A stretch of DNA of 50,309 bases from an uncultured Sulfolobales archaeon (GTDB lineage Archaea > Thermoproteota > Thermoprotei_A > Sulfolobales > NBVN01), in NCBI GenBank assembly GCA_938045815.1, contig CALIBI010000031.1, forward strand, positions 1-50,309, written 5' to 3'. A program made the position numbers and the translations under genes. Below the pieces are notes generated by a model, which saw only the letters and a list, made by a program, of their open reading frames with translations, was not told the origin of the DNA and did not search any database. Below, piece after piece: positions 11,867 through 48,616 of this stretch (within the stretch, counting starts at the first letter, position 1; the number at the start of each line of letters is the position of its first letter).

Positions 11867-12820
11867 ATGGGAAAGCCGAAAAGCAAAGAAGAACTTCTTT
11901 TTCCTACTAAAACAGCACTCATTCTAGTAATTCCCTCACTCTTTCTCTTCATATTCTTTAATATATGGCCAATAGCTTTCTCAGCTTACCTGGCTTTCAC
12001 TAACGCTAATCATATAAACATATACAACCCAGATTATCCTGCCAGACCTCTCATGTTTATAGGTTTGAGTAATTTTATGAAGCTGTTCAATGACCCGGCT
12101 TTCTACTACTCACTCTTAAAGACTTTGTTGTTCCTTGCTACATCAGTTCCATTAAAGATATTAGTTGGTGTAGGTCTCGCGTTTCTCCTCTCCACACCCC
12201 TAATTTATGGAAGGAAAATAATGAGGGGGTTGTTACTGACACCTTGGGCCATACCTGCCATATTATCTGTTATGATATGGAGAAGTGTTCTAGACCCTAG
12301 CTACGGTCCCGTGACTCAGTTTTTCTCGTTTATTGTTGGCAGACCTTTTCAGGCTGTAGGTACTATTATGAATGAGTGGGATTCTTTCTTAGTATATAAT
12401 ATCATAGAAACCTGGCTAGCTTATCCCTTCGTAATGACCGTAGTTGGTGGTGCTATATCAGGTATTCCTAAGGAGATTATCGAGGCCTCAATAGTTGATG
12501 GAGCAGGCGTATTCACTAGGACCACTAAGGTTGTTTTACCACTAATAATAAGAACCATAGCTTTCGTAGCAGTTCTTACGTCAGGTGCTTCTCTCCAGGC
12601 TTTCTTAATTCCCTTCGTACTCAACGACGGTGGTCCTATGATTAGGTTCATGGGTAAGCTAGTCAACAGTAATGATTTGCTGCTCTTGTACGGGTATCAT
12701 AGATTCATGAGAGACTATGAGTGGGGTTATGCCGCGGCTTTCTACCTCATAGTTGTTCTAATACTCTCAGTGTATGTTTACGTGTGGTTTAAGCTAGTTT
12801 TTCAGAGAGGTGGTAAGTAA
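11867..12820 (+). CDS. Sugar ABC transporter permease, MalF type
   Basis: This 317-aa inner membrane permease has about six hydrophobic helices. It carries the cytoplasmic EAA-loop signature of binding-protein-dependent permeases (EASIVDGAGVFTRTTKVVLP, around residues 206-225), which docks on the ATPase. It starts 15 nt after the binding-protein gene and is followed almost at once by the second permease, so all three are co-transcribed. MalF-type N-terminal helices and length fit a maltodextrin or related carbohydrate importer. Confidence 0.9.
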   Translation: MGKPKSKEELLFPTKTALILVIPSLFLFIFFNIWPIAFSAYLAFTNANHINIYNPDYPARPLMFIGLSNFMKLFNDPAFYYSLLKTLLFLATSVPLKILVGVGLAFLLSTPLIYGRKIMRGLLLTPWAIPAILSVMIWRSVLDPSYGPVTQFFSFIVGRPFQAVGTIMNEWDSFLVYNIIETWLAYPFVMTVVGGAISGIPKEIIEASIVDGAGVFTRTTKVVLPLIIRTIAFVAVLTSGASLQAFLIPFVLNDGGPMIRFMGKLVNSNDLLLLYGYHRFMRDYEWGYAAAFYLIVVLILSVYVYVWFKLVFQRGGK

Positions 12821-12821
12821 G

Positions 12822-13634
12822 GTGACTTCAGTTAAGTTATATCTACTCAAGCTATTTATTACTGCGGTGGGATTCTCCATAACTGCTACACTACTTTATC
12901 CTGTAGTCTATATCTTTCTTACAGCATTCTCAAAACTACCTACCATATCACTTGATGCAGCATACTTCACTCTAGACAACTTCGTGACTGTTATCAACGA
13001 TGGAGATTTCAGGAGCTCGCTATTTCTAAGCTCTCTGGTTTCCGGGGCTACAGTATTCCTAGCTTTATTATTCATAACTCCTGCAGCATACGCGTTCTCC
13101 AGATTTAGGTTTAGGGGTAAGAGTACCGCGCTATACTCTTACCTAATATTTAGTCAAGTGAGCGGGGGTTTTGGTGTGGCGTCTCTTGTTGCTCTCTTTG
13201 TTTTTCTAGGCAAACTGAATCTAGTTAATATTTACGTGCTGCCATTCCTGTATGTTTCCGGTATGGTTCCTTTCAATACCTGGCTCCTCAAAAACTATTT
13301 TGACAACATTCCTAGAGAGTTAGATGAGGCTGCGTTCGTTGATGGTAGTGGGTGGTGGACCCTAATGTTTAGGGTGGTCCTACCATCATCTAGAGCACCA
13401 ATGCTGGTGTTAGCTATCTTCGCGTTCATGGGTGCTTGGTCTGAGTTCATTCTAGCTAACTTATTCGGTTTCCAGACTCTGCCAGTCTTTATGTATAGAT
13501 ATATTGGAGCTCGTACCATTTACTGGAATATATTCGCAGCTACAGCAATACTCTACGCAGCACCTATGATAATCATGTATATGGTGGCGCAGAGATTCGT
13601 AGGAGAGGCTGTTAGGATGGGTGTTAAAGGTTAG
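12822..13634 (+). CDS. Sugar ABC transporter permease, MalG type
   Basis: This is the second permease of the same importer, about 270 aa with six hydrophobic helices and the EAA-loop motif DEAAFVDGSGWWTLMFRVVLP in two parts around residues 170-190. The frame is open from GTG 12810, overlapping malF. However, GAGGTGG at 12806-12812 is a Shine-Dalgarno site placed for GTG 12822, just after the malF stop. No ATP-binding gene follows; the operon ends here and two sRNA genes come next. An ATPase encoded elsewhere must energise the transporter, the MalK-like protein at 31028-32128 being one candidate. Confidence 0.9.
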   Translation: MTSVKLYLLKLFITAVGFSITATLLYPVVYIFLTAFSKLPTISLDAAYFTLDNFVTVINDGDFRSSLFLSSLVSGATVFLALLFITPAAYAFSRFRFRGKSTALYSYLIFSQVSGGFGVASLVALFVFLGKLNLVNIYVLPFLYVSGMVPFNTWLLKNYFDNIPRELDEAAFVDGSGWWTLMFRVVLPSSRAPMLVLAIFAFMGAWSEFILANLFGFQTLPVFMYRYIGARTIYWNIFAATAILYAAPMIIMYMVAQRFVGEAVRMGVKG

Positions 13635-13671: not shown

Positions 13672-13719
13672 TCAGAATTCCTGGGATCATCACTACTCAG
13701 CCGGTTGATCCTTCATCAC
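13672..13719 (-). ncRNA. C/D box sRNA with a guide matching the 5' end of 16S rRNA
   Basis: On the minus strand all four boxes are in order: C box GTGATGA (13713-13719), 12-nt guide AGGATCAACCGG, D' box CTGA (13697-13700), 3-nt spacer, C' box GTGATGA (13687-13693), 11-nt guide TCCCAGGAATT, D box CTGA (13672-13675). Guide lengths and the short D'-C' spacer are typical of archaeal C/D sRNAs that direct 2'-O-methylation with L7Ae, Nop5 and fibrillarin. The first guide is the exact complement of CCGGUUGAUCCU at the start of archaeal 16S rRNA. The five-nucleotide rule points to the first U of GGUUGAUCC. The second guide's target was not recognised. A TATA box sits about 25 nt upstream of the C box. 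Confidence 0.88.
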
Positions 13720-13774: not shown

Positions 13775-13784
13775 GTTTATAAGG
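13775..13784 (+). promoter_or_regulatory. TATA box for the plus-strand C/D sRNA
   Basis: GTTTATAAGG points away from the minus-strand sRNA promoter, only about 25 nt from it. Transcription would begin near 13805-13810. There CTGAAG and CTTCAG (13804-13820) can form a small hairpin just upstream of the C box. Confidence 0.5.
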
Positions 13785-13827: not shown

Positions 13828-13876
13828 GTGATGAGAGCTCCCCTTCCTGAAGCATGATGTATCCGACATCGGCTGA
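13828..13876 (+). ncRNA. C/D box sRNA with a guide matching the 23S rRNA peptidyl-transferase loop
   Basis: Four ordered boxes are present: C box GTGATGA (13828-13834), 12-nt guide GAGCTCCCCTTC, D' box CTGA (13847-13850), 4-nt spacer, C' box TGATGT (13855-13860), 12-nt guide ATCCGACATCGG, D box CTGA (13873-13876). Ten bases of the second guide are complementary to CCGAUGUCGG. That string belongs to the conserved 23S loop around E. coli positions 2500-2509. The fifth base before the D box pairs with the U equivalent to 2504, predicting 2'-O-methylation there. The first guide's target was not recognised. The gene ends directly at the stop codon of the convergent glycosyltransferase gene and is followed by a T5 run. 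Confidence 0.87.
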
Positions 13877-15199
13877 TCAGTTTTTATTAATTACGTAGAA
13901 GTCCTTCACTGCAGACACTCTGAATATCGAGGACACTTCTATTAACCAAGCTATAGGTGCTATTAGGAAGTACCTGAGCTTCCCAGACTTGTAGGCTCCG
14001 TACGCGTACGCTGACCAGTGATATAGTGAATTAATTATTATGAGGCTTGCGATGAGCACGTTATAGTAACTCTTCGTCACGATTACCGTAATCACGACTA
14101 TTACTAAAGCAACCCAGAGAAAAGATTTAACAGCTACTATAGCTCTCATAAGGTTCGGAGCACGTCTTAAGTCTTTCAAGACCCCCTTAAACCATCTAGC
14201 TCTTTGTTTCTGGAGATCGCTTAGACTATTAGGGGATTTAATACTTACTATAGTTCTTGATTGCCAAGTCTTGTAATCATTCTTAACCAACTCAATAGCT
14301 AGGCTGAAGTCTTCAGTTATTGATGCGTGATTAAAGTTTAGTTCTCTTAATACGTGACCCTTAATACCTAGTAACTCCCCGTGAAGCCCTAAAAACGGCT
14401 TCCCTAGAAAACCCGTAAAGAACCTGTAGAGAGTTAAGTCATTGAAGTATCTTATCCAGTCAATCACGTAAGCTATTGTTGAGTTACCTCTCCGAGGCTT
14501 CAATATGGGATTAAAAGCCACGTAACCAACCTCCTCATAATACGGTATCTCATACAGGAAATGATCATCCAAAACTATGTTATCATCATCTAAGAAAACA
14601 TACCAGTTATCAGGTTCTACGAAATGTTCTATGAAGTACTTCATAGCACGCGCCTTACCCTTGCAGGATCTTATGTATGTTTGAGGTACTACAACGAGTC
14701 TTAGGTAAGGATCTGAGGAACTCATACTACTTAAGTAATTCGTTAATTCCGCACCCTCATCTATAACCACCCACACTAAGTAATTTCTGAATCTCTTGCG
14801 TAAGTTCCCTAGAGATTCTTTTAAAGCATTCTTAACTTTATTATTAGCTACAGTCACGAGAACAAACTCTACGTTATAACTCTTATAAGGCTTCTTCTTA
14901 GGCTTGTAGATAACGTACCCTATAGACCCAGCTATCAAGAAAACATAAGTAACAGATAGTGTTATGTAGATTGGTATCATGAGGTATGGCTCGTTAGATA
15001 AGACATTAACACTCTCATCCATCATCAACACCTGATTCATAATGAATTCACAGGATAAAAAACTTATAATCTTCGTACTAACGTATAAGCAGGTGACTAG
15101 CATGGGTGGTAGGCAGAAAACTACTCTTTTCATGATTAGTGAGTCTAAAGAAACACGCAAAGCTAAGAGTACCGAAACACAAGAAAAAACCAAAAGCAA
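13877..15199 (-). CDS. Membrane-bound family 2 glycosyltransferase (processive/egghead-like)
   Basis: This is a 440-aa integral membrane glycosyltransferase. The N-terminal part (residues 1-98) has hydrophobic helices, the central GT-A domain spans about 105-340, and two or more helices follow to the C-terminus. The catalytic motifs of GT2 are present: DDDN (204-207), TED (295-297) and QKQRARW (330-336, the QxxRW motif). SCKGKARAMKY before the DDDN is typical of egghead-like and cellulose/hyaluronan synthase-like enzymes. It probably extends a cell-surface glycan, glycolipid or N-glycan. TTG 15199 gives the longest frame; ATG at residue 23 is the main alternative. It is transcribed away from the MscS gene through a shared 75-nt promoter region. 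Confidence 0.85.
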   Translation of the reverse strand: MLLVFSCVSVLLALRVSLDSLIMKRVVFCLPPMLVTCLYVSTKIISFLSCEFIMNQVLMMDESVNVLSNEPYLMIPIYITLSVTYVFLIAGSIGYVIYKPKKKPYKSYNVEFVLVTVANNKVKNALKESLGNLRKRFRNYLVWVVIDEGAELTNYLSSMSSSDPYLRLVVVPQTYIRSCKGKARAMKYFIEHFVEPDNWYVFLDDDNIVLDDHFLYEIPYYEEVGYVAFNPILKPRRGNSTIAYVIDWIRYFNDLTLYRFFTGFLGKPFLGLHGELLGIKGHVLRELNFNHASITEDFSLAIELVKNDYKTWQSRTIVSIKSPNSLSDLQKQRARWFKGVLKDLRRAPNLMRAIVAVKSFLWVALVIVVITVIVTKSYYNVLIASLIIINSLYHWSAYAYGAYKSGKLRYFLIAPIAWLIEVSSIFRVSAVKDFYVINKN

Positions 15200-48284: not shown

Positions 48285-48616
48285 GGGGGGCGGTGTCGGC
48301 TATAGCCCGCCTTCAGTACTACGGCGGCATGAAGCTTAACGGCCTACCCGCGCCTCGCGCGGTCCTCATCGGCGCTACTTGGCCTTGCTCCCGAGGGGAC
48401 AGCCGTTTCAACGCATCCGCCCCCATACTCAGCGGGTTACTGACACCTCGTTGCCGAAGTGTCCTCACCACCTCATCGACATCCGGGGGCGGCCGTGTCG
48501 TTTCTGTGCTGTTGCCGCGGGTCTCCCCGCACCCCTTACGGGGTCCTCGCACCGCGTGGAGGGCGGTGCTTCCTCAGGGACGTAAGCCCCGTAGCCGCCA
48601 GCCGACTCCGCCCCAG
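48285..48616 (-). ncRNA. rnpB: RNase P RNA
   Basis: This is the RNA of the tRNA 5'-processing ribozyme, about 332 nt. It is a sharp GC-rich island in AT-rich DNA, as structured RNAs are in thermophiles. The closing helix P1 is exact: GGGGCGG-A-GTCGGCT at the 5' end (48600-48614, minus strand) pairs with AGCCGAC-A-CCGCCCC at the 3' end (48287-48301). Conserved core segments appear in order: CTGAGGAAGCACCGCC (CR I), GCAACAGCACAGAAACGA (CR II/III), GAGCAAGGCCAAGTAG (CR IV) and GGCGGGCTATAGCCGA (CR V). The universal elements are in archaeal type A order. Several open frames inside are artefacts. Confidence 0.96.

Follow-up and report, generated by a model that had tools for sequence, protein, structure and literature searches.

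All four domains of the small ribosomal subunit are connected through the central pseudoknot. In eukaryotes, the C/D RNA U3 occupies the 5′ strand of this structure and postpones its closure. Nucleotides 9–25 and 913–920 form this pseudoknot, and a base triple is given as U13-U20-A914 (PMC3914948). Yeast U3 pairs with nucleotides 9–16 of 18S rRNA and, judging by the 90S structure, probably also with the 5′ arm of helix 27 (h27) (PMC5354517), while reviews describe U3 and U3-like RNAs as not known in archaea (PMC8339473, PMC3608112). Archaea carry dual-guide C/D box sRNAs (Omer 2000 and Gaspin 2000, as cited in PMC7994747; Dennis 2015, PMC4644070), among which orphan guides are common (PMC7994747). 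In the text of the 2015 survey, the methylation site is given as the fifth nucleotide upstream of the D or D′ box; the same text, supplementary tables aside, does not mention a target at the 16S 5′ end, nor does it mention the pseudoknot or U3 (PMC4644070). By guide, the closest Rfam family is RF01145 (sR14), from Pyrococcus and Thermococcus.

The locus described here, sRNA A, lies in a window of 50,309 nucleotides (the whole stretch of DNA that was analysed) from an uncultured Sulfolobales archaeon. The interval 13672–13719 is an archaeal C/D box sRNA gene, in kind an ordinary member of an already known class. Read on the minus strand (13719 to 13672), it is arranged as GTGATGA-AGGATCAACCGG-CTGA-GTA-GTGATGA-TCCCAGGAATT-CTGA, i.e. 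C box (RUGAUGA), D′ box (CUGA), C′ box (RUGAUGA) and D box (CUGA) in this order, and its spacing is canonical (guides of 12 and 11 nt for an expected ~10–12 nt, and a short D′–C′ spacer of 3 nt). Compared with archaeal C/D box sRNAs, we found no architectural difference: the boxes, the guide lengths, the spacer, the fifth-nucleotide rule and the intergenic or gene-end position are the same. It lies in an intergenic gap; the flanking genes encode an ABC-transporter permease (12810–13634, plus strand) and a family 2 glycosyltransferase identified by its domains (13877–15199, minus strand). The TATA-like element listed in Table 1 is a possible promoter of sRNA A. The folding energy of sRNA A is unremarkable (z −0.11), as expected for C/D sRNAs.

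Table 1. Features of the sRNA A locus and of the neighbouring sRNA B, in window coordinates
Feature	Position	Strand	Basis or remark
C/D box sRNA A, box-to-box unit of 48 nt	13672..13719	−	Box pattern, spacing, chance estimate, orthologues
C box GTGATGA	13713..13719	−	Sequence
D′ guide AGGATCAACCGG, 12 nt	13701..13712	−	12/12 against own 16S 5′ end CCGGUUGAUCCU, E. coli nt 9–20
D′ box CTGA	13697..13700	−	Sequence
C′ box GTGATGA (GTGATGT in G002 and G004)	13687..13693	−	Sequence, congener comparison
D guide TCCCAGGAATT, 11 nt	13676..13686	−	CCCAGGA core kept in genus
D box CTGA	13672..13675	−	Sequence
TATA-like element CTTATAAAC	13775..13783	−	64 nt upstream of the sRNA A C box
C/D box sRNA B	13828..13876	+	Convergent with the glycosyltransferase gene, at whose stop codon it ends

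The first-pass annotation had called, with no strand given, a C/D box sRNA with four perfect boxes, and this pattern, present on the minus strand, occurred in none of 300 random versions of the window generated with a dinucleotide model. A relaxed box pattern, expected 0.007 times per window, was found twice, at sRNA A and at sRNA B. Single C/D half-motifs arise by chance ~0.24 times per window, which is what could be said for boxes and guide being a chance resemblance, but the full motif is absent from the random sequences and the wide conservation and covariation described below speak against it as well; already refuted by conservation, this explanation has a negligible probability.

sRNA B, which had been overlooked, reads GTGATGA-GAGCTCCCCTTC-CTGA-AGC-ATGATGT-ATCCGACATCGG-CTGA. 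Its D guide shows a 10-nt pairing (one G-U) with TCGATGTCGG of 23S rRNA (E. coli about 2500–2509), near the peptidyl transferase centre, and the gene is conserved, likewise next to the glycosyltransferase gene, in G001, G002, G004 and G005. The window also harbors an archaeal RNase P RNA gene (48291–48610, minus strand, 204 bits). On a Thermococci contig (L088), three C/D sRNA genes (sR14, sR22 and sR45) lie within about 1.1 kb.

An Rfam search for the organism's own 16S rRNA gave no match, the gene being divided between contig ends. A pattern search then located the 5′ end, and the 3′ end was found upstream of the 23S gene; the assembly lacks the middle. The 5′ end lies at the end of a contig (G000:C33) and reads ATTCCGGTTGATCCTGCCGG. 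The D′ guide of sRNA A pairs 12/12 with CCGGTTGATCCT in this sequence, which confirms the earlier reading of the guide as a 12-nt exact complement of the 16S start and excludes the case, named there as fatal to that reading, of a host 16S lacking the complement. The next best site among the own 16S pieces and the 23S has a run of only ~7–8 pairs, G-U included and counted through the site position. From the fifth-nucleotide rule, the predicted target is the first U of GGUUGAUCC, the same base as originally proposed, corresponding to U13 in E. coli numbering (our own alignment). The guide thus matches a stable RNA encoded by its own genome, with the site base-paired five nucleotides from the box. 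Fibrillarin is encoded in the same genome (G000:C4, E 8.2e-103). Overall, the boxes, the spacing, the match to the own 16S and fibrillarin, together with the synteny, the distribution and the single covariation presented below, make it highly probable that sRNA A is a guide for 2′-O-methylation of U13 near the 16S 5′ end, as predicted from these sequence features.

In the congeners G002 and G004, sRNA A occupies a syntenic position after the same glycosyltransferase gene, and in G001 the orthologue is found elsewhere on the same contig with intact boxes; guide lengths are 12 and 11 nt in all four genomes, the window's included. When the intergenic region is aligned with those of G002 and G004, both sRNAs appear as conserved islands in diverged DNA, and the TTATAA of the TATA-like element is also kept. 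In the congeners, the position adjoining the D′ box does not pair, and 10 Watson–Crick pairs remain (G001 and G004, where a 16S is available). The rRNA contig of G003 was set aside from the 16S comparisons because its 16S looks bacterial (G003:C28, L067); the bin is probably contaminated there. Among 30 genomes of the same family, many of them incomplete, the sRNA A guide is present within 2 mismatches in only six, one of which is doubtful, a point against the guide reading. The match to 16S could be real and the gene nevertheless a decaying or silent remnant, as the orphan appearance of the D guide and the variation of its D-proximal bases within the genus might suggest, but four perfect boxes, a guide pairing at every position and syntenic islands in diverged DNA render this very unlikely.

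The D guide itself has a part that is constant in the genus, CCCAGGA, and bases adjacent to the D box that vary (ATT, TGT, GGT, GGA). We found no convincing target for it in the own 23S or in the own 16S fragments, which lack the middle of the gene, and on a congener's 16S its match is unexceptional, being reached by 271 of 400 shuffled guides. Candidate sites were considered and rejected: the 23S near CATCCTGG is unconvincing, with 8 pairs in G002 and 6 in the window's genome; h21 of 16S (AATTCCTGGGC, as in G041) fails in the congeners with an archaeal 16S; and the 16S 3′ end offers 7 pairs, in G004 only. The D guide also carries neither TTCAGCCTTG nor a similar complementarity to helix 27. 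It probably has either no rRNA target or one in the middle part of the own 16S that the assembly lacks. Since the D guide has no convincing target, single-site methylation is all that is supported for sRNA A, and bridging is not.

We ran a pattern composed of box, guide and box, with 18 fixed bases, on about 85,000 species genomes. It returned 70 exact matches, about 61 archaeal and 9 bacterial, the latter being near the ~7 expected by chance from our own estimate for 18 fixed bases; a match in G043 was left out of the count as it has no proper D box. Note that the single register of all 70 matches holds by construction of the pattern. The archaeal loci, most of which display a second box pair on one side of the guide, belong to Thermococcus and other Thermococci, Desulfurococcales, Pyrodictiaceae, Culexarchaeia, Methanomethylicota, Wolframiiraptor and deep Thermoproteota. 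The searched collection seems to contain no complete single-contig genomes carrying the pattern, and absences from it are thus uninformative. The 16S 5′ ends checked in several distant genomes with the pattern count in support of the guide reading.

A matched change in guide and target was observed in family f4, where helix 1 of 16S has a compensated change CCGC...GCGG (G033, G053). The 16S of G053 carries G12C and reads CCGCTTGATCCTGGCGG, and the same genome has two C/D sRNAs (L142, L143) with the matching guide AGGATCAAGCGT, which forms an 11-nt pairing with the altered 16S; they share their partner guide type with Pyrodictium. An either-base search over six f4 genomes returned these two loci, the other five genomes giving none. 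This apparent guide–target covariation corresponds to one event in one genome and is supportive rather than conclusive.

In Thermococci, in the window's genus and in the group whose partner guide is directed at 23S, the guide for the 16S 5′ end comes first (D′); in most other loci it comes second (D). The site of its partner guide depends on the lineage: 16S GGGCCTAAAGC in Desulfurococcaceae (h19, E. coli 566–576), TATTGGGCC in Pyrodictiaceae and relatives, just upstream of this h19 site, CAAGGCTGAA in Culexarchaeia, Methanomethylicota and one family of the window's order (h27, about 899–908), 23S ACTCGGCAAA in one deep group, and 16S ACGATGCGG in Wolframiiraptor, with E. coli numbers taken from an alignment of ours over conserved stretches. 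L022 (the family of the window's order), L115–L117, L123, L131 and L139 are dual guides that target both the 16S 5′ end and helix 27. In two genomes of the window's own family, G029 and G030, the partner guides AGGAGGTGATCT or GGGAGGTGATCT are complementary to the 16S 3′ end GGATCACCTCC, and each of these sRNAs (L160, L159) has one guide that pairs with the 5′ end of 16S and one that pairs with its 3′ end (anti-Shine–Dalgarno); the GGGAGG variant of this type fits the CTCCC variant seen in a congener. Shuffled guides reached the observed match in 3 of 400 cases for h27, 7 of 400 for h19 and, on a relative's 16S, none of 400 for the 16S 3′ end. The corresponding counts are 81/400 for Wolframiiraptor and 40/400 for G053, so that these two partner targets are weak. 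Partner guides could be assigned to classes in about three quarters of the loci, and the comparison leaves out 23S matches on references L051, L054 and L057. Thermococcus has two partner types. In Desulfurococcaceae-like loci (L096, L104, L106, L111, L113 and others), the sRNA ends just upstream of the start codon of a conserved gene whose product begins M-A-Y-T-W-E-P-K-W-E.

The sR14 family shares with sRNA A the C box, the position of the D′ guide and the spacing. Its Thermococcus members carry GGATCAACCGG-CTGA exactly, with a D′ guide that, like the one of sRNA A, is directed at the 16S 5′ end, and the sR14 model recognises several Thermococcus loci with the same guide. The second guide is unrelated, and the sR14 consensus guide, GgAUCuACGg, differs from that of sRNA A and is one base shorter. 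In a covariance model scan, one of the checks recommended in the first-pass annotation, sRNA A obtains 25.7 bits for a gathering score of 38 and stays below the family cut-off. Rfam at curated cut-offs skips the gene, in line with the earlier expectation that annotation misses such genes; for annotation, this means that sRNAs of this kind are lost at standard cut-offs.

If expressed, as we infer, sRNA A would fold into a C/D k-turn and a C′/D′ k-loop and would bind L7Ae, Nop5 and fibrillarin. The D′ guide would pair with nucleotides 9–20 of the pre-16S rRNA, and fibrillarin would then methylate the 2′-O of U13. While bound, sRNA A would cover the 5′ strand of both helix 1 and helix 2, and would hold back formation of the central pseudoknot until its release. 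The coverage of these h1 and h2 strands is also where another account starts, in which sRNA A would be mainly a folding chaperone of the 16S 5′ end, with methylation incidental or absent. C/D sRNAs have been proposed as rRNA chaperones in the text of the 2015 survey (PMC4644070), and the partner guides of other lineages pair near the central core (h19, h27) or with the 16S 3′ end. Furthermore, the cryo-EM/LC-MS list of modifications of the Pyrococcus abyssi 30S subunit includes no Um near the 16S 5′ end (PMC7005279), even though sR14 spans Pyrococcus and Thermococcus, and this counts against U13 methylation. The resolution was 3.2 Å, however, and the sR14 consensus differs from the sRNA A guide, so that this guide may be absent from P. 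abyssi. The box-to-guide register, on the other hand, is the one needed by a methylation guide, and the partner guide of sRNA A has no convincing rRNA target, so that the chaperone role suggested at first, plausible for the guide family, cannot be argued for sRNA A. We therefore hold a mainly chaperoning sRNA A to be possible but on the unlikely side, and retain the methylation guide for U13 as the preferred reading. A guide that addresses identical 16S nucleotides in an unchanged register, from Thermococci across to several groups of Thermoproteota and with one matched change, is a candidate for a genetic test. Its recurrence in archaea that are only distantly related, combined there with varying partner guides, makes it a candidate folding helper for the small subunit, a role that can be tested.

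Like sRNA A, U3 snoRNA pairs with the 5′ end of the small-subunit rRNA. U3 also contacts helix 27, a contact shared by the orthologous guides of Culexarchaeia, Methanomethylicota and a single family within the window's order, whereas sRNA A has the 5′ end contact only; within h27, the archaeal guides are directed at the loop and the 3′ arm, and U3 at the 5′ arm. U3, which does not act in methylation, is much longer than the 48-nt unit of sRNA A and also base-pairs with the 5′ ETS. The guide for the 16S 5′ end could be an ancient archaeal counterpart of U3, a C/D RNA acting in trans that would hold the 5′ strand of the pseudoknot and, in lineages with an h27, h19 or 3′-end partner, would gather distant core strands before closure; we put this forward as a speculative and rather improbable proposal. 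By analogy, and with no claim of common descent, the archaeal dual guides that combine the 16S 5′ end with h27 deserve to be tested as candidate analogues of U3.
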